Position numbers and translations under genes: made by a program
Part shown: piece by piece, positions 7,253-22,416 of the stretch
Layout of the letters: each line of letters begins with the position of its first letter
How positions within the stretch are numbered: the stretch's first letter is position 1
Notes under the pieces: model-generated
Told to the model about the DNA's origin: nothing
Databases searched by the model: none
Seen by the model: only the letters and a program-made list of their open reading frames with translations
Source of the DNA: a virus
IMG/VR virus record: IMGVR_UViG_3300032770_000001
Coordinates: 123,931-187,930 of that record
Strand: one strand, 5' to 3'
Length of the DNA stretch: 64,000 nucleotides

Positions 7253-7569
7253 AGCGCGGCCTGTGGGAGATTTTGGTTCCGGTCGTCAATAACCGGGGCA
7301 AGAAAATCCCTGTCAAATTTCATCAGGGTTGGGACGCCAAGGTGCGTGCCATCAGCGGCGGCTTGACTATCCGTAAGCCGGAGAAGGGTCAGTGGGTTCA
7401 CCCGGAATCGAAGTCCCTGTTCGCCGAGAAAATGATCCCGGTGAAATTCATGGGCACCCGTGACGAGGCGGACCAGATCGCACAGATGACGCTGGAGTAT
7501 TACGACCAGCAGGCGGTCATGTGCTACAAGATCGCGGAAGAAGTCATCATGAAGGTTCGTTCCAGCTAG
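7249..7569 (+). CDS. hypothetical protein
   Basis: 106 aa. Beta-rich N-terminal half with basic residues (VNNRGKKIPVKFHQGWDAKVR), helical C terminus. Coupled to the preceding gene by ATGA. No family recognised. Confidence 0.6.
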   Translation: MKRGLWEILVPVVNNRGKKIPVKFHQGWDAKVRAISGGLTIRKPEKGQWVHPESKSLFAEKMIPVKFMGTRDEADQIAQMTLEYYDQQAVMCYKIAEEVIMKVRSS

Positions 7570-7863: not shown

Positions 7864-8479
7864 CAGTTTCCGGGGCGTATACCGCTTCCTGTCGAACTTC
7901 TACGAGAACTGCCCGGTGAAGCTGTGGGTGAGCACCAAGGGCAAGGTCTTTGCGAATTACGATGGGCTCTACGGAATTGTCGAGCACATCAACTCGTTCA
8001 ATCATCTGCCGGACGATCATCCGGATCGCGATTTTCTGTACTGGATTGAGACTTACGACAACGTCGAGAATGCGTATCAGGCGGCGAAGTCCCTCGACAT
8101 AAACGTTCGTGAGAAGTTCCGTGTTCGCGGCCTGCGTCCGTGGGATGCGAAGAAGCTTGGCGGCACAGTGAAACTACGTCCTGATTGGGATACAGGCACC
8201 GGGACTATGCCGCCGTTTAAGATTGTGGTCATGCTCGGTTTGCTGATGCAGAAATTTGAGCCGACCATGCTACGGCGTCGTCTGCTTTCAACGATGACGG
8301 CTGAATTGATTGAGGGCAACAACTGGCACGACACGTATTGGGGCGTCTGCGACGGGAATTGCAACGAAGGTCCGCATGAACCGTTCGGCACCAACCATCT
8401 CGGCAGGCTGCTGATGATCGTGCGAGGGTATCACGGAGGTTTGTACGATGGCACGAGTATTCTTACAGCGCGTCAGTGA
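7832..8479 (+). CDS. NADAR (YbiA-like) family protein
   Basis: 215 aa. Family landmarks occur in order: FRGVYRFLSNFYENC near residue 13, ENAYQAAKSLD near 80, RPWDAKKLGG near 105, MLGLLMQKF near 133, then LIEGNNWHDTYWGVC (about 155-170) and GTNHLGRLLM (about 187). NADAR proteins act on N-glycosidic bonds of NAD- or ADP-ribose-linked compounds; some reverse ADP-ribosylation of guanine in DNA placed by DarT-type toxins, others (RibX/YbiA) act on riboflavin intermediates. In a phage, protection against host ADP-ribosylation or handling of NAD breakdown products is a reasonable inference. The start has GAGAGAG upstream and lies inside the preceding gene. Confidence 0.85.
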   Translation: MKTAKLPTKIDSFRGVYRFLSNFYENCPVKLWVSTKGKVFANYDGLYGIVEHINSFNHLPDDHPDRDFLYWIETYDNVENAYQAAKSLDINVREKFRVRGLRPWDAKKLGGTVKLRPDWDTGTGTMPPFKIVVMLGLLMQKFEPTMLRRRLLSTMTAELIEGNNWHDTYWGVCDGNCNEGPHEPFGTNHLGRLLMIVRGYHGGLYDGTSILTARQ

Positions 8480-8627
8480 CGCGCTGGATTGGCTGTACGA
8501 GTTCCGGATTCCGATTGTTCTGGTGATCCTGCTCGTCCTGATGTTTGCGTTTCATAGCTGCGAGTTCCGCATTTCGATTGATTCGCGCCCTTCGGAGACG
8601 ACGACCGAACAAGGTGCTCGAAAATAA
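8448..8627 (+). CDS. small membrane protein
   Basis: 59 aa. GGAGG lies eight bases before ATG 8448. One transmembrane segment (IPIVLVILLVLMFAFHSC, about residues 22-39), a short cytosolic N terminus and a polar tail. It overlaps the NADAR gene by 32 bases in another frame. Confidence 0.65.
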   Translation: MARVFLQRVSDALDWLYEFRIPIVLVILLVLMFAFHSCEFRISIDSRPSETTTEQGARK

Positions 8628-8630
8628 TTG

Positions 8631-8659
8631 TTGACAGTGAATCGACTTTCTGGTATTGT
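8631..8659 (+). promoter_or_regulatory. sigma70-type promoter
   Basis: TTGACA 8631-8636, 17-base spacer, TGG-TATTGT (8654-8659). It would start RNA near 8666, ahead of a structured leader and the tRNA-Pro genes. Confidence 0.65.
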
Positions 8660-8665
8660 ATATGT

Positions 8666-8928
8666 GTAGTCGGCCATGCGACAAGCTTCCTTCTAAACTT
8701 GCTCATTGGCGAACAAAAACAGCTTTCGCGATATCCGACTCATATATTAGGAGCTAGTCTTCAAATGACATTGATGCGACCAACGCCGACGTTTCGACCG
8801 TGCACACCTACCGTGCGCGGGGGAATCGGACACACCCTTTAGGGTTCCGGTCGCACCCCGCGCTGCTAGGCGACGGGGCTCTGGCAAGTTGTGAATTTCC
8901 CAACATTACTGCCATTTTTACCCCGTCC
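8666..8928 (+). ncRNA. structured leader or ncRNA before tRNA-Pro array
   Basis: No convincing gene lies here. Perfect helices are GCGCGGGG (8815-8822) with CCCCGCGC (8856-8863), enclosing ACCC-TTTA-GGGT, and GACGGGG (8871-8877) with CCCCGTC, enclosing GGCA/TGCC and GTTG/CAAC. A 25-codon frame (8765-8842) runs through the first helix and is probably chance. The RNA may be a leader removed during tRNA processing. Confidence 0.45.
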
Positions 8929-11713: not shown

Positions 11714-11791
11714 GCCTGTGTAGCTCAGACTGGCTAGAGCGCCCGTCTCATAAGCGGGAGGTCGGGGGTTCGATGCCCTCCACAGGCACCA
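11714..11791 (+). tRNA. tRNA-Met or tRNA-Ile2 (CAT)
   Basis: Acceptor GCCTGTG/CACAGGC with CCA, anticodon arm CCCGT-CTCATAA-GCGGG (CAT) and a complete D arm. The fold is canonical. Elongator Met and lysidine-modified Ile2 cannot be separated from sequence by eye. Confidence 0.9.
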
Positions 11792-11914
11792 GTTTTAGGG
11801 AGACCGGGAACCTGCGGGCCCTTCCGAGGCTATAGCACCAGCGGCAACGGTGATTAACTGCCCAAACACAGTATCGGATACCCGGCAATTCTATTCAACA
11901 GGAGGATGAAGCAG

Positions 11915-11950
11915 ATGGCTAACCCTAGCATCACCGTACATACCGTGTAA
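11915..11950 (+). CDS. possible leader peptide
   Basis: An 11-codon frame (MANPSITVHTV) preceded by AGGAGG at a good distance (11900-11905). It ends 29 bases before the next gene. A leader or mini-cistron is possible. The rest of 11792-11979 holds no gene I can support. Confidence 0.3.
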   Translation: MANPSITVHTV

Positions 11951-11979
11951 GGTGTGGACGGTGGGAGGTAAAAAGCCAA

Positions 11980-12297
11980 ATGCGTCACCCTCGCACCCGC
12001 GACGAACGTCGCGCTGTACGCGAGCAGATCATTGCTCGTCGCAAATTTATCGCAACCCAGATTTGGGACATTCCGTCCTACGTCCGCCCTCCGCATGAAG
12101 GCGAATGGAACCGTTGGTCGAAGCCAGAGGAATGGGAGCCATTTCAGTGGGGTCGCTACCACAAGTGGAACATGAACTGTGGCGATACCATGTGTCATGG
12201 TGCGAAGTATTTCAAATGCGCTTCCAAGCGTCGTAAAGCACGCAAGGAAGCCGAGTCAACCGCCGAGTTTCGTCGTCGAAATAAGGCCATCGATTGA
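11980..12297 (+). CDS. basic hypothetical protein
   Basis: 105 aa; GGGAGG precedes ATG 11980. Arg/Lys-rich at both ends, with a Trp-rich centre (WNRWSKPEEWEPFQWGRYHKW) and a CGDTMCHG pair that could bind metal. Probably nucleic-acid binding. Function unknown. Confidence 0.6.
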   Translation: MRHPRTRDERRAVREQIIARRKFIATQIWDIPSYVRPPHEGEWNRWSKPEEWEPFQWGRYHKWNMNCGDTMCHGAKYFKCASKRRKARKEAESTAEFRRRNKAID

Positions 12298-12336: not shown

Positions 12337-12832
12337 GGTCTGGTTAAACCCTAGTGGCGATGACCACTCCCCGGTTTTACCCCGGCACCCGATACGCAAC
12401 GGGGCGCTAGTGATTAGGAAGGGTCGAGGCGAACTGCGTGCCCCCAAGGTGGGGCTAGCCGAAAGCCCGGATAACGTCCGACGTGGTGCCCGGTTCTAGT
12501 CAACCGTCGTGCGTCTACCTTTCGGGGAATTACAAGTACCCGAAAGGACGTGATGATGCAGTGCACTTGCCGGGGTTCTTTGATCTTTGATAGTTTTAGA
12601 GTCGAGTGGCCCGTGATTCAACTGGTTCAGTGGTTTCAGTAAGAGGGTCGAATGGCCTGTCAGGGACAAATAGATACTCCCTGAGCGATGTTAGACCGCT
12701 ATCCCCAGTATAAAAAACGCAGCAGCGGGGGCAGTATCCGTAAGGACTGCGGGAGGCTCCACGAAAAGGTGCTAGACAACCTGTGGGAGGCCGTATCGGG
12801 GTTCTAGCTAAACCGACCTGTGCTCGACTCTA
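12337..12832 (+). ncRNA. large structured noncoding RNA, part A
   Basis: About 500 bases without a supportable gene. Strong helices: AGTGG/CCACT, GCCCC/GGGGC, CGACG/CGTCG, CCTTTCGGG (12518-12526) with CCCGAAAGG (12539-12547), TCAGGGA/TCCCTGA, and a ten-pair closing helix TAGAGTCGAG (12597-12606) with CTCGACTCTA (12823-12832). A GTAA tetraloop caps GCAGT..CC/GG..ACTGC. The density of perfect helices points to a folded RNA, not a message. Confidence 0.6.
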
Positions 12833-12839
12833 ATTTTTA

Positions 12840-12932
12840 TGGCGGATGCCCGGATAGCGTAAGCAGTCACGTGAAAGTCGTGTTAACAGCCGGGGCGGGG
12901 ATGTTGGCGTAAGCCAAGCGAACCATCCGCCA
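12840..12932 (+). ncRNA. structured RNA module with GTAA loops
   Basis: Closed by a perfect nine-pair helix TGGCGGATG (12840-12848) / CATCCGCCA (12924-12932). Inside are CACG/CGTG, GCCCGG/CCGGGGC and TTGGC-GTAA-GCCAA. The outline recalls a tRNA-sized three-way junction but it lacks a T arm, so it is not called a tRNA. Confidence 0.55.
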
Positions 12933-12937
12933 AGGTT

Positions 12938-13018: not shown

Positions 13019-13095
13019 TGCGGGGTGGAGCAGTCAGGTAGCTTGTCGGGCTCATAACCCGAAGGTCGGCGGTTCAAATCCGTCCCCCGCTTCCA
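13019..13095 (+). tRNA. initiator tRNA-fMet(CAT)
   Basis: Bacterial initiator marks are present: no pair at 1-72 (T-T), acceptor GCGGGG/CCCCGC from position 2, and three G-C pairs in the anticodon stem (TCGGG-CTCATAA-CCCGA). The D arm and T arm closely follow the bacterial fMet pattern. CCA is encoded and the discriminator is T instead of A. Confidence 0.92.
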
Positions 13096-13106
13096 AGTGT
13101 TCGCCG

Positions 13107-14104
13107 CCGTGGGTTGTTAGTTGTACTCAGAGTGCCGTCAGGAACAGCAAGATCGTACTAGTACCTGAGAGCGCAACCCACGGTTTAGAGGCGATTGCCG
13201 TCACCTGCGGATGTAGTACGGTCTGGGCGTCAGGTGCGCCGGGTCGGTGACCCAGACCGGAGCGACATCGTTGACCGGACATTCCGGTTTCGTTAGCAGG
13301 TCCTCATGGGACATCAGCATGGTGCCTGAGTAGTGCTGAAGTTCGAGGAACCGCGAAAGCGTGAAACCTGTGAAGCGATCCTCAGGCCGATCTTTGAAAA
13401 GTTTGCGGCGGCGTTCCCGGTGTCCCGTCAATAGACTGGTTCCTGACCGGATACGTGAGTAATCGTTCTTCAAGGGGTGAAATAAAAGAACGGCGCAGAA
13501 CAGGTTCCTGCGCGTGGGGCTGTGATTTTCCAGCTACTACCTCTCGCCGCAATATAACAAATCTGCAAGTTGCATTCCGATGCCCGAAGCGCCCGATGAG
13601 GGTTTGCGGACGGTAGCGTGACTTGCGGAGGGTAGGTGAACGGCTTCACAGCCGCCGTCGAAAGACGGGCAAGTCCGCCGTAAATTCGGGACGACGTTCA
13701 CCCGGTCAGGCACTACTAAAACAGAACCGTGGGGTGCCGTCAGTCGAGAGACTGGATGTTTCTGATTGCGCATGGCATGGCGAGGTCTCCCTATGTTTGG
13801 ACGGAGGCAGGCCCTTTTCGACAAGGGACATACGTCAGAGCGGAATCACGGTGGGTATGTGGTTGGAACCATCCATGTAGTGGCCTGACGCCTAATTTCA
13901 GTTTCCGGTCGTGGCGGAAAAGAGACGATAAACAAATAGAGACGCTAAAACTCGCTGAGAGGATGTACCCTGATTTCGACAGGGATTCTCAGCCTGTGAG
14001 ACTCTGTAGGTAGCACCCACGTCTGACAGATGTTAGTGGCTCGAAAGAGCAGCAGAGTCATGCACCGTGGAGAATCGGGAATCGGTGCCGACTGGAAGAT
14101 TTTT
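13107..14104 (+). ncRNA. large structured noncoding RNA, part B
   Basis: About 1 kb with little coding potential on the + strand. Helices include CCGTGGGTTG (13107-13116)/CAACCCACGG (13174-13183), CGGTCTGGG/CCCAGACCG, ACCGGA/TCCGGT, CGTTCTT/AAGAACG, GCGCAG/CTGCGC, CCGTC-GAAA-GACGG, CAGTC-GAGA-GACTG, CCCTT/AAGGG, CGTCAG/CTGACG, TTTCCG/CGGAAA, GCTGAGA/TCTCAGC, GACTCTG (14000-14006)/CAGAGTC (14053-14059) and GCTC-GAAA-GAGC. ACTTGC (13621)/GCAAGT (13669) interlocks with GGTGAACG (13635)/CGTTCACC (13695), a pseudoknot. It ends in TTTTT. Size, GNRA loops and place beside tRNAs recall the phage RNAs GOLLD and ROOL; membership is not shown. Confidence 0.65.
13201..13473 (-). CDS. uncertain leftward ORF inside structured region
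   Basis: 90 aa on the minus strand from a TTG, without a visible SD. The second half (MLMSHEDLLTKPECPVND) reads like protein, but the DNA is also part of a hairpin-rich region. It could be a small antisense gene or chance. Confidence 0.25.
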   Translation of the reverse strand: MKNDYSRIRSGTSLLTGHRERRRKLFKDRPEDRFTGFTLSRFLELQHYSGTMLMSHEDLLTKPECPVNDVAPVWVTDPAHLTPRPYYIRR

Positions 14105-17272: not shown

Positions 17273-17977
17273 ATGTCCGATCAGTACCAGCAGGCACCGG
17301 AAGTAGTCGATCTCGAATTTCACCGCAGCGCAGCCGACACGTTCTATCGCATGGGCAGCATCGCCCGTGGAATCAATCCAGCCCGAATCGAACGTATTCA
17401 AACTGAAATCGACTTTACCGATCTGGTGGATGACCTAACGGGTAGACGTGGCGAGAAAATCTCTTGCCCATTCCACGGCAGGGACAGCACGCCGTCGTTC
17501 TTCACTCGTGGTGGTTTCGGTTTCTGCTTCGGCTGTCCACCGGGGCAGCAATATTACGATCAGATTCGTTTCGTCCAAAAGTTCAACGATATCTCGTGGT
17601 TCCAAGCTCTTCGTTGGATCGAGAAGGAATACGAACTTCCTCCGCTGCCGGAATACGCAAGCGAAGAAGAGATCGAGGACGAGATCACGACGGAAGTTTT
17701 CTTGGTCGATCTGGAAGAAGAGTATTTTCGCAAGGCAGCTAAGGATTCACTGCAACATCTTGATCCGGGGCTTGCCGAAGAGTACGCCCTGATCTATTTC
17801 AACGCCCGTGAACAAGACGAAGGGGCCAATGAAGCACGCAAAGCCGGGGAGCACGAAGAAGCGTCCCGCATGAAAAACAAAGCGACAACTATGTTGGCGA
17901 GAGTATTAGGTCAACAGGTGGTCAATCAGATTCTTGACGATAAAGAAGCGCGGAACGAGAAGTTGTGGCGAGTGTAA
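17273..17977 (+). CDS. primase zinc-finger (CHC2) protein
   Basis: 234 aa. Residues about 62-90 form the DnaG-type zinc-binding domain: ISCPFH, then DSTPSFF, then FGFCFGC (CHC2 ligands C-H-C-C), followed by the typical helix (DQIRFVQKFNDISWFQALRW). The C-terminal 130 residues are an acidic helical region. It lacks a TOPRIM domain; one occurs in a separate protein at 34482-35228, so the primase seems split. The stop overlaps the polymerase start (TAATG). The message is predicted leaderless. Confidence 0.8.
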   Translation: MSDQYQQAPEVVDLEFHRSAADTFYRMGSIARGINPARIERIQTEIDFTDLVDDLTGRRGEKISCPFHGRDSTPSFFTRGGFGFCFGCPPGQQYYDQIRFVQKFNDISWFQALRWIEKEYELPPLPEYASEEEIEDEITTEVFLVDLEEEYFRKAAKDSLQHLDPGLAEEYALIYFNAREQDEGANEARKAGEHEEASRMKNKATTMLARVLGQQVVNQILDDKEARNEKLWRV

Positions 17978-20900
17978 TGGACTTTGAAATCGACAACATC
18001 GACGACGAACCAATAGAGGAAATTGCCGAGGAAGAAGTTGCGGACGAGCAGGTAATCTCCGAAACTATCGCCTCCCTCCCTATTGCGGAACCGGAACAGC
18101 AATCATTGCTCAATGACATCGTTGTGCCGAAGAAGACCCGCAAGCGCAAGCCGAAGACCGAGACTGCGGACGGTGAGGTCGTCGTTACCAAGCGCACCAA
18201 GAAAACCAAGAAGGTCAAAGAACCGTCCGACCTGCGCTACATCTTCCGTAAGGCAATGAAAGCTCTCGACATCGAGAAGCTCAAAAAGCCGTGGATGGCT
18301 GAGAAAGCTTTCCGCCTGCTCGACACGGAAGAAGCTCTGGAACGTTGGGTGGACGGCATCCTGTCCGACACATCCCGACACTACACTTACGGCAATGAAA
18401 CCTGCCCCGTCATCGCAGTTGACACCGAGACGATGGGTCTGGATACGCGCATTCTCGTGGACATCCAGCAGCGTCCGGATGGTGGTTACGATCTCATTTA
18501 CGAAGTCAAGATCGAGATTGCAGGCATCTGTCTTTCCCCGGATGGGGTTGAAGGCATTTACATTCCGATCAATCACGAGAAAGGTAATAACGTTTCTCGC
18601 GAGGCTGTTCGTCGCATTCTGCAAAAGCTGTTTGACCGCAGCCATCTGGTATTCTACAACGCCAAGTTCGACCGCGAAGTTCTACGCCTGTGCTGCGGCA
18701 TCAATCTGCGTGGCTACCCGCACTTCGAAGATGTGCAATCCCTTGCTTTCATCAATGACCCGAAAGCGGACCTCGGCGATAAGAAGCAGAAATACACTGG
18801 ATCGAGCGGCGGCTTGAAAGCCCTCTCGAAGAACGTTCTGCGCGATTCTAATGGCAATCCGATTGAGCAGATCGAACTGGAAGAGATCGGTCGTTTCAAA
18901 GCATCATGGTGCCCAATAACGCAACAATCTTTCTGCACCTGTACGCCTGAAGAAAGAAAAGCGGCTTCCGATCAGGGCAAGAAGCACTCTCACGTCAATC
19001 AGTACGTTCCGTTTGTATGGGTTCCGACTAATGTGGCGTTATGGTACGCCGCTGGTGACGCTATCTGCACGTGGCTGCTCTGGGATAAGATGAAAGACCT
19101 CGCCCGGAGCCGCCGTCTACCGCACCGCATTGACCACGAACTGGTGGACTCGTTGGTATTCGTCGAGCGTCAACGTTTCCTGATCGATGTGGATCGCCAC
19201 ACCCGGACATCGAATTGGCATACTCGCCTGCTCGATGGGCTCAACGCCAAATTGCGTGAACTGGCTTTGGAAGCTGGTTACCCCGAAATTAAAACGGACG
19301 AGGGCGTCGTTCTCGACGATGACAAGTTCAATCCAGATAGTCCGCCTCAGGTCGGCAAACTTCTCTACACGATCAAGAAGTATGAAGCCACGCATTTCAG
19401 CAAGAAGACTGGCAACGCCTCTTGCGATGCGGATGCCATCGATGATTTGTTGAAGGAACATCCGGAGGATGAATTCCTCAAAACCTACGTCAAGTACAAA
19501 GGCTACTCGGCCCTGCACCCGTCAAATTTGCGCTATGATCCGAAGGACAACTCTGCTCGTATTCACCTGCGGCAGTCTACGGTCGCTGGCGGTCGTCTAT
19601 CGGCGTCAGGCGGCAAGTTCGAAGAGGATGGCGGATTCGGTCTCAACCCTCAGGGCGTCAAGAAGGTTGAGCCCGGTAAGATGTGGCGTGTCATGGGTCA
19701 GATTCTTAAACCGGATTCTATTCCGGTGGAAGAGATCGAAGCGCATGAAGAGAGCGAACTGCACCCATCATGCTTCTTTGAGGATAAAGAGCACAACAAG
19801 AAGAAAGCTCCCGGCATCATCAACAACCATATCGGGCTCTACACGGGCTACGCGATCTGTCTGGTGCCGACCTGCACCACCTGTAAGGAAAAGTTCGGCA
19901 TTCTCATCAAAGACGGGTTCATGGATGCCAACCAGACCGTCAATCTGCGCTGCCTGTTCATAGCGCCTCCGGGTTGGACATTCTTCTCGGTTGACTACTC
20001 CAACATCGAAATGCGTGCCGCCGCGAACTGCTCCGGTGAACCCGCATTCATCAAGGAATTCCTTGAGGGCGAGGGCGACTTCCACAGCTTAACCGCATCA
20101 AAGGTCTTCCCCGAATTTAACGATCCAAGCACGCCTCCGGGCAAGAAAAAAGCTCTCCGCGATCTGGCTAAGATCATCAACTTCGCCTTGCTGTACGGCG
20201 GCACATCGCACGCGATCTATCTGAACATGAAGGAAGTCGATCCCAACATCACCAAAGAAGATTGCGAGAAGATGGTGAACAAATATTGGGAAGGCGTGCC
20301 TAAGTTCGCTGAGTTCGTAAACGCGAAACAGTACAAAGCTCGCACCGAATTCATCTGCGAAACCAGCACGGGCCGCGTCATTAGCTTCCTGTCGGCTATG
20401 GAGGCTTTACGCATCCATGCTCCGACCGCCGAAGAAAAGCAAAACCTCTACAACTACTACGGCATACGTCGTGAGGCTGAGACCGCCAAAGCACGGCATG
20501 ACATGGAAGCTTACGATGAACTCCGTGGCAAGATGGACGCCTTGTGGAAGGATGCAGACTCAGGCGTGCGCAATGCCATGGAGTACAACAAGTTCGTCGG
20601 CAAGATTCAACGTGTCGCCGTCAATGCTCCGATTCAGGGTCTCTGCGGTGATTTCATGCGTATCGCCCTGAACCGCCTGCGCATGTGGGTGGAGAACGAT
20701 CCGGAAATCTCTTCGATCTTCCGCCTGCACACGTCGGTACACGATGAAGTTGACTTCTCAGTGAAGAACGAGTACATCCCGTTCATTCTGCCGCGTGTCA
20801 CCCGCCTCATGAAGCTGCGTAAGTACCACACGCAGATGAACTGGATGGTGCCGATTGAGTGCGATGCTGAGTACGGACGTTCGTGGGATGTTGACTGGAA

Positions 20901-22416
20901 CACAACTGACCCGAAGAAGCCAGCCGCATGGACGCACGTGGATGGCATGGAGAACTACATTCCGGATGAATTTGATCCGGCATCGGTCATGCGCCTCATC
21001 AAAGCGATCACGTCATTCGAACCCGCCCGTGTGGATAAGGTCAAGAACTGGCTTAAGGACAGCATCCACGCCCGTGCATACGAATGTGTCAAAGCTCTCG
21101 ATAAAGCCTTGGAGAAGAAGGACACCAAGGAAGTAACTCGCGTGCTCATTGCTATGCTCCAGTTGCATGAATACTGGACAATCGATCATACGCCGGATGG
21201 CAAGGAATTCGACGCTTCGCTGGAGAAGCTCGAAGCTTACGAGGCCCGTATGGGTCTGAGCAAAGCGGATCGTGGCATCAAGCCGGAGTTCGGCTATCTC
21301 GGTGCGATCCCATTAGAGTGCAATGTCATTCGCCCGAAGATCGAAATTCTTGGCGAAGAAGTAGTACCGGAGCAAGCGCAGATCGTTGTGTCGGAAACCG
21401 AGATCAACGCAACCAATCCAGAAACGCAGACACAGCAGACCATCACGCTCATGGTTGAAGATCAACAGCCTGAGGTCTTGGCTGAGAGCCCCGCAGATGT
21501 GGTGACCGTGGCCTACGATGCGGATTATGACGAGCCGAACGTGGTTTCACATGAAAAAGTTGTCGAACGCCCGTTGCGGGAAGTGCCTAAAGCGGGGATT
21601 CGATATCTGGCAAGTAAGCTTCCGGCATTTCCTGAAGCCCCGCACAAGGACGATAAACAAGCCTACGTCGATTGGGGCGTCGAAGTAGAACGGTTGTTTA
21701 AGAATGAGATCGCGCCACACATTGGGCTCACAGTCAAATTCAACGCGGAAAAGAAAACCAATGTCGGGGCAATCGATTTTGTTATCGACCATTCCTACCT
21801 CGCTGATTTGAAATATCAAGGCAAGCCGTTTTTCTCATGCTGCTTGAAGAACCCGAAACACGATTTGAACCCGCAAACCACGGTTAGCTACAACTATGAC
21901 GACACCAAATACGCCGATGACGTGTGGGTGATTTTCTTGGTCAATTGGGAGATTCTGAAGGGATCAGACGTTCCCGGTTATGATTACGCCGGAGCACCGT
22001 GGCAGCGAGTTTTCGTTAATCCAATGGGCGGTGTGTGGCGTATCAAAGTTTCTGACATTAAAAAGTTCATCGCCGAGGGCATGGCTCCGCTTCATGAGTA
22101 TGACCGCGAATTGGACGCCAACGGCATGATGAATGAGAGTCACAGCTATTTGCTCGATCTGTCATGGCCGGGATTCGAGCAAATTGCATGGTTCGATTAC
22201 GAATCTACGTCAGAACCTATCGAGCCGAAAATATACCCGATTCAGGACTCAATCATCGGCAATCAGGAGTTAAAAACCCGTCTTCAGACGGCATTAGGAA
22301 CCGGACCGCACACAGTTACAGTCAGCATCCTTGGAAAGCAGTATCAATTAACAGGGAAGGCTTTGGATTACGTGCCGGACGAGTTCTTGAAACATGAGGA
22401 GCTTGTCCATGCTTAA
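17977..22416 (+). CDS. DNA polymerase I family (A) with nuclease-like C-terminal domain
   Basis: 1479 aa from ATG 17977 (GTG 17965 is an in-frame alternative). After an acidic/basic N-terminal tail comes a 3'-5' exonuclease: D149-x-E151 (VDTETMG), N228/D232 (YNAKFD) and Y357/D361 (YAAGDA). Polymerase: GGRLSASGG, motif A with D673 (VDYSNIEMR), motif B R728/K732 (RDLAKIINFALLYGG) and motif C H922-D923-E924 (SVHDEVDF). An insert of roughly 90 residues before motif A carries CTTC. Beyond about residue 1020 lies a long extension; near its end D1267, D1277 and K1279 (AIDFVID and ADLKYQ) fit a PD-(D/E)xK nuclease core. Replicates phage DNA. Family members are usually 600-1000 aa. Confidence 0.92.
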   Translation: MDFEIDNIDDEPIEEIAEEEVADEQVISETIASLPIAEPEQQSLLNDIVVPKKTRKRKPKTETADGEVVVTKRTKKTKKVKEPSDLRYIFRKAMKALDIEKLKKPWMAEKAFRLLDTEEALERWVDGILSDTSRHYTYGNETCPVIAVDTETMGLDTRILVDIQQRPDGGYDLIYEVKIEIAGICLSPDGVEGIYIPINHEKGNNVSREAVRRILQKLFDRSHLVFYNAKFDREVLRLCCGINLRGYPHFEDVQSLAFINDPKADLGDKKQKYTGSSGGLKALSKNVLRDSNGNPIEQIELEEIGRFKASWCPITQQSFCTCTPEERKAASDQGKKHSHVNQYVPFVWVPTNVALWYAAGDAICTWLLWDKMKDLARSRRLPHRIDHELVDSLVFVERQRFLIDVDRHTRTSNWHTRLLDGLNAKLRELALEAGYPEIKTDEGVVLDDDKFNPDSPPQVGKLLYTIKKYEATHFSKKTGNASCDADAIDDLLKEHPEDEFLKTYVKYKGYSALHPSNLRYDPKDNSARIHLRQSTVAGGRLSASGGKFEEDGGFGLNPQGVKKVEPGKMWRVMGQILKPDSIPVEEIEAHEESELHPSCFFEDKEHNKKKAPGIINNHIGLYTGYAICLVPTCTTCKEKFGILIKDGFMDANQTVNLRCLFIAPPGWTFFSVDYSNIEMRAAANCSGEPAFIKEFLEGEGDFHSLTASKVFPEFNDPSTPPGKKKALRDLAKIINFALLYGGTSHAIYLNMKEVDPNITKEDCEKMVNKYWEGVPKFAEFVNAKQYKARTEFICETSTGRVISFLSAMEALRIHAPTAEEKQNLYNYYGIRREAETAKARHDMEAYDELRGKMDALWKDADSGVRNAMEYNKFVGKIQRVAVNAPIQGLCGDFMRIALNRLRMWVENDPEISSIFRLHTSVHDEVDFSVKNEYIPFILPRVTRLMKLRKYHTQMNWMVPIECDAEYGRSWDVDWNTTDPKKPAAWTHVDGMENYIPDEFDPASVMRLIKAITSFEPARVDKVKNWLKDSIHARAYECVKALDKALEKKDTKEVTRVLIAMLQLHEYWTIDHTPDGKEFDASLEKLEAYEARMGLSKADRGIKPEFGYLGAIPLECNVIRPKIEILGEEVVPEQAQIVVSETEINATNPETQTQQTITLMVEDQQPEVLAESPADVVTVAYDADYDEPNVVSHEKVVERPLREVPKAGIRYLASKLPAFPEAPHKDDKQAYVDWGVEVERLFKNEIAPHIGLTVKFNAEKKTNVGAIDFVIDHSYLADLKYQGKPFFSCCLKNPKHDLNPQTTVSYNYDDTKYADDVWVIFLVNWEILKGSDVPGYDYAGAPWQRVFVNPMGGVWRIKVSDIKKFIAEGMAPLHEYDRELDANGMMNESHSYLLDLSWPGFEQIAWFDYESTSEPIEPKIYPIQDSIIGNQELKTRLQTALGTGPHTVTVSILGKQYQLTGKALDYVPDEFLKHEELVHA

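Follow-up and report, generated by a model that had tools for sequence, protein, structure and literature searches.

The gap of about 1 kb in the tRNA array of this virus, at positions 13107-14104 of the window (the whole stretch of 64,000 nucleotides analysed here), is, judging from comparison with related sequences, a series of structured, autonomous RNA modules running in the direction of the tRNA genes and not one giant RNA. The conserved units are separate modules of approximately 107-240 nt which are reshuffled between phages. One of them, module B, almost certainly belongs to a real RNA family that is not listed in Rfam and that is present in dozens of phage contigs. What is new is the RNA family itself, its setting being common to GOLLD, ROOL and the T4 RNAs C and D.

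Modules in the gap between the tRNA genes

The window covers bases 123,931-187,930 of a 455,708-base virus record and contains 16 tRNA genes, all on the + strand and all at 4.7-15.7 kb. The gap is located between tRNA-Met and the tRNA-Phe genes (15482 and 15589) and is without a conserved protein. Relatives were gathered via the family-A DNA polymerase gene, located at 17965-22416 in the window, and comprised Tunturi_5, a cultured Tunturiibacter phage, and the contigs L002-L013 from metagenomes; the tRNA array was syntenic in several of these. When the region and sequences of the family were compared by BLAST with named phages, and in one search with plasmids, no close relative appeared, the sole lead being a short match of the 5′ motif described below to LR756501. 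For two small proteins neighbouring the region no relatives were found. By eye, frames resembling HNH and LAGLIDADG homing endonucleases were seen inside the tRNA/RNA array of L003 (5090-5480) and L007 (6826-7175 and 7740-8050).

The gap was divided into modules by blastn and alignment with the relatives. These and the adjoining features are:

12594-12836, + strand: neighbouring conserved RNA module of about 240 nt, common to L002, L005, L007 and L046
13019-13095, + strand: tRNA-Met, upstream of the 1-kb gap
13100-13195, + strand: stem-loop domain that follows tRNA-Met directly and includes a perfect 10-bp helix (13107-13116/13174-13183); MFE z -3.9 for 13107-13183
13268-13418, + strand: likely outer boundaries of module A, taking in a further hairpin and a weak outer stem, from an alignment (A2) and RNAalifold; weaker than the core
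13290-13396, + strand: core of module A, with stem GCAGGT/ACCTGT, inner helices and a pseudoknot (13325-13331/13380-13386), from covariation
13450-13555, + strand: A2, conserved hairpins between A and B common to L002 and L003, from blastn (13453-13476) and alignment by eye
13556-13895, + strand: insert between A2 and B, without a blastn relative
13902-14098, + strand: module B, with closing stem P1 (13902-13911/14089-14098), motif ACGATAAACAAAT and a P4 hairpin with the 17-nt loop GTGGAGAATCGGGAATC, from model R2 and covariation

The initial annotation had described the gap as a single ornate RNA of about 1 kb beside tRNAs, rich in helices and GNRA tetraloops and ending at TTTTT. The density of helices was borne out, with 29 perfect local 6-bp helices versus 12.7 ± 4.6 in dinucleotide shuffles, as were the four GNRA loops closed by 4 bp, where about 1 is expected in shuffles, and the TTTTT, which is present at 14100-14104. 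A structured phage RNA beside tRNAs is thus what the region holds, but the units move separately and the single RNA of about 1 kb was not upheld. Module A occurs without B in L005 and L007, B occurs without A in L010, L046 and L039, and in L002 a copy of B (2679-2885) is located far from A; since each is found without the other, A and B are separate units.

A pseudoknot had also been proposed, from the interlocked helices ACTTGC/GCAAGT and GGTGAACG/CGTTCACC at about 13622-13701. These fall within the 340-nt insert for which blastn found no homologue, and the pair is not above chance: an interlock of 6+8 bp arises in 23% of shuffles of 13556-13895 and in 55% of whole-gap shuffles, and because such interlocks are frequent in shuffles this one is no evidence for a pseudoknot. 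The gap does contain a pseudoknot identified by covariation, but in module A, where the hairpin loop GCCTGAG pairs with a downstream CTCAGGC. The pairing reads GTCTGAG/CTCAGAC in L005 and GCCGGAG/CCCCGGC in L009. Over the core of module A, 92.6% of cells in five sequences were paired, with slid controls reaching 31-44%, and double substitutions were seen in 10 of the 27 pairs. Model R1, built from the same five sequences, detected module A once in each of seven of the 13 records (E<=3e-23), two of which, L004 and L007, were outside the model and are both close to L003. The compensatory changes relative to related phages that had been suggested as a check were accordingly found, in A as well as in B.

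Upstream of tRNA-Met, the module at 12594-12836 had a mean column identity of 78% and double substitutions in 12 of 54 predicted pairs, and no Rfam match was found for it. Further conserved non-coding blocks were observed at 12370-12581 and 12836-12937, the latter being relocated in L003 to a position directly after a tRNA-Met (3242). A helix resembling the one after tRNA-Met in the window was seen by eye in L005. At 11791-11978 a conserved leader with a small ORF (MANPSITVHTV) has a terminal hairpin just before the ORF at 11980, and similar peptides were noticed by eye in L005, L007 and L012.

The module B family

Module B was first recognised through its covarying closing stems. Model R2, made only from L002, L009 and L010, detected the window copy (E 2.9e-15), the copy in L003 (2.3e-14) and copies in further phages, the E-values of these purpose-built covariance models being rough. 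The family is characterised by a closing stem P1, an ACGAU..A..AAA motif, a P4 hairpin with the near-invariant 17-nt loop GUGGAGAAUCGGGAAUC, and a P4 3′ strand abutting that of P1; all four traits are found in the window at 13902-14098.

A scan for the exact P4 loop, made without reference to the upstream motif ACGAT..A..AAA or to pairing, gave 44 loci in viral contigs and 47 in prokaryote genomes. Motif and stem were present at 39 of the 44 viral loci versus 3 of the 47 cellular loci, the latter accepted by a loose motif regex and with L174 alone inspected closely. Three of the five remaining viral loci keep a paired stem; two of these three, L113 and L130, are copies of the L046 type with an inserted hairpin. 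With duplicates removed and the copies from the polymerase relatives added, the family counts 43 distinct members. The invariance of the loop is overstated, partly by construction, as the search that yielded most members required the exact 17-nt sequence, but in members reached by other routes (the window copy, L003, L009, L010 and LR756501) the loop varies only slightly. The member in LR756501, a megaphage of 735,411 bases, was reached via the 5′ motif and not the loop, and has P1 AGATTTTTATTGA/TCAATAAAAATCT, P4 GCG/CGC and the loop variant GAGTC. Usually a single copy is present per record; L002 contains two, one of them truncated.

In 39 distinct sequences 87.7% of the P4 cells were paired, compared with 44.4% in shuffles and 33-46% in slides, and both the number of double-substituted cells (94 versus 30.5) and the covariation score (1.085 versus 0.218) were raised. 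P1 is 8-13 bp long in most members, with a sequence that largely differs between them. The best P1 helix had a mean of 9.3 bp, a length biased upward by its choice as the best helix in a search, versus 6.5 bp in shuffles treated with the identical search. The P4 3′ strand abuts the P1 3′ strand in most members. P2, another hairpin placed around the ACGAU motif, is plausible in some members but was better than shuffle in only 25 of 43 and was rejected overall for lack of significance. A loop-loop pairing CGAU/AUCG is conceivable; both sides are invariant, hence covariation is uninformative.

Three further candidates were discarded. A weak match of model R3 in LR756504 was without other support, the R3 matches in Agrobacterium phage Atu_ph07 lie in apparent coding sequence and lack the loop, and L021, a match of the first B pattern, was set aside as coding-like by eye. 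Rfam 15 had no family over the B element at gathering score or at E<=1, except for the edge of an RNase P match in L131. No prior description of the family was found in Rfam or in the open-access literature, although metagenome-derived motif lists could hold one.

tRNA genes and RNase P RNA around module B

tRNA genes were present at 26 of the 39 viral member loci, and 223 of their 227 tRNAs were on the strand of the element, a descriptive figure; with nearly every 17-mer locus a member, the comparison for tRNA enrichment had just five viral non-members as its control, too few to be informative (Fisher p = 1.0). The element may be nearly flush with its neighbours, with 1, 2 and 5 nt to the upstream tRNA in L114, L133 and L098, respectively, and 4 nt to the downstream tRNA in L119. 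In the loop search, 13 of the 39 viral members came with a fetched stretch in which no tRNA was detected. Inspection of 11 members in stretches with no detected tRNA revealed no common neighbouring gene, which disfavours a cis element. Together with the same-strand and flush tRNA setting, this favours a trans-acting RNA derived from tRNA transcripts.

The record from which the window is taken also contains a bacterial type-A RNase P RNA, outside the window at record positions 92128-92502 (167.1 bits, cut-off 100). RNase P RNA scored over the Rfam cut-off in 7 of the 18 records searched, namely this one (L230) and six relatives (L225-L229 and L231; 139-255 bits). Since it is found in the window's record and in these relatives, the enzyme for cutting tRNA-array transcripts is, as read from the genomes, partly phage-encoded, and the release of module B by a phage RNase P RNA may be inferred. 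In L131, a weak RNaseP_arch match (851-1045, - strand; 25 bits, E 2.9e-5) with the core motifs GAGGAAG..ACAGAAG lies downstream of a B-family member, with a tRNA gene on its other side. It was rejected as the element itself and regarded as a neighbour, as it starts inside the P4 loop and has its conserved core downstream. Another sub-threshold match was seen in the phage of L106.

Two other RNA-like features were noticed in the relatives. A possible circularly permuted tRNA-like RNA, in the order T-arm, acceptor 3′ half, short spacer, acceptor 5′ half and D-arm, occurs in a conserved context in L010 (about 1110-1310, by eye), L012 (about 8427-8600) and L046 (about 8525-8680). In L005, a sub-threshold wcaG RNA match (7473-7553; 29.6 bits, E 0.16) is located just before a tRNA-Phe pair.

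Known RNAs and the proposed function of module B

Membership in GOLLD or ROOL, the assignment first suggested, found no support in the covariance models; the alternative of a new class was supported. The GOLLD model (RF02032) found nothing in the window's record, even at E<=10, and exceeded the cut-off in none of 11 records, with only sub-threshold hits in the controls. ROOL (RF03087) was absent from the cmscan of the window, which listed tRNAs only, and from a model search of the record, above chance level from the relatives, and likewise from the control genomes. The controls of both model searches held no true member, and those searches alone are weak negatives. GOLLD and ROOL are also structured phage non-coding RNAs beside tRNA islands, as here after the tRNA-Met ending at 13095, but they are single large RNAs, many GOLLD exceeding 800 nt and having a conserved 3′ region, in contrast to the 107-240-nt modules. 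GOLLD forms a homo-oligomeric RNA cage.

Orphan small RNAs in phage tRNA arrays have been known since the T4 RNAs C and D (species 1 and 2; AF158101, 70908-71171). These too are encoded as small RNAs within the tRNA array of a phage, and by analogy would be the nearest functional precedent for module B. They lack the loop and motif of the B family, and were rejected as homologues by reading of the sequence and by the search with model R3, which finds nothing in the T4 genome. RNase P RNA, although present in B-family phages (RF00010/RF00373) and in L131 directly downstream of a member, is a separate gene, and apart from the edge of the weak L131 match the B element has no match to it.

The B element acts, probably, in trans as a processed RNA. 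Module B would be transcribed as part of the tRNA-array precursor and cut out by the tRNA-processing machinery, the phage having an RNase P RNA gene of its own; the released RNA of about 110-240 nt would accumulate in stable form, its ends kept together by P1. Two conserved surfaces, the segment ACGAUnnAnAAAU and the P4 loop of 17 nt, would then be presented to a conserved partner. Trans action on translation or tRNA metabolism is thought likeliest because of the tRNA setting and the two near-invariant surfaces on variable stems; naming the translation or tRNA-processing apparatus as that partner is a guess, and a rather doubtful one.

That the whole 1 kb is instead one large RNA of GOLLD/ROOL-like architecture but new sequence, forming a multimer and having a variable 5′ part and conserved 3′ modules, is quite improbable. 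It would agree with the high helix density, with the order A, A2, B shared by the window, L002 and L003, and with the position next to tRNA-Met, which one GOLLD also adjoins (PMC12286853), but A and B are found separately, B has a closing stem of its own, and a GOLLD/ROOL match is absent. It is equally improbable that the modules serve to trim the tRNA precursor, be it as self-cleaving ribozymes or as processing signals, in the manner proposed for the HDV-like theta ribozymes linked to gut-phage tRNAs (PMC10879173). Elements flush with tRNAs and conserved unpaired loops on variable stems would fit such a role, whereas some members are far from detected tRNAs, the architecture differs from that of theta ribozymes, and the Rfam covariance models placed no self-cleaving family, HDV-like ones included, over the B element.

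It is also unlikely, if slightly less so, that module B works in cis, as a leader or something like a terminator, or is a mobile repeat coding for an RNA with no host-directed function. Module B changes place, is present twice in L002, lies in an array with apparent homing-endonuclease genes and in the window is followed by TTTTT; yet no common downstream gene was seen, one copy per record is usual, the compensatory constraint is strong, and the 17-nt loop is kept across very different phages.

The trans-acting RNA is the reading retained here, and its wider form is tentative, if plausible. In that form the family would be a new, widespread class of small RNAs in the tRNA arrays of phages, small contigs and the 735-kb megaphage alike; tRNA processing would set the RNA free, with a phage-encoded RNase P RNA perhaps taking part in some phages, and it would act in trans on a universally conserved target in host translation or tRNA metabolism. 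The family bears on the question of what long tRNA arrays are for in phages and what role their orphan small RNAs have. Because its members can be aligned and share two strongly conserved surfaces in many different phages, it makes mutational tests, pull-downs and structure work possible. The RNase P RNA in B-family phages suggests, moreover, that certain giant phages supply a tRNA-processing ribozyme of their own.
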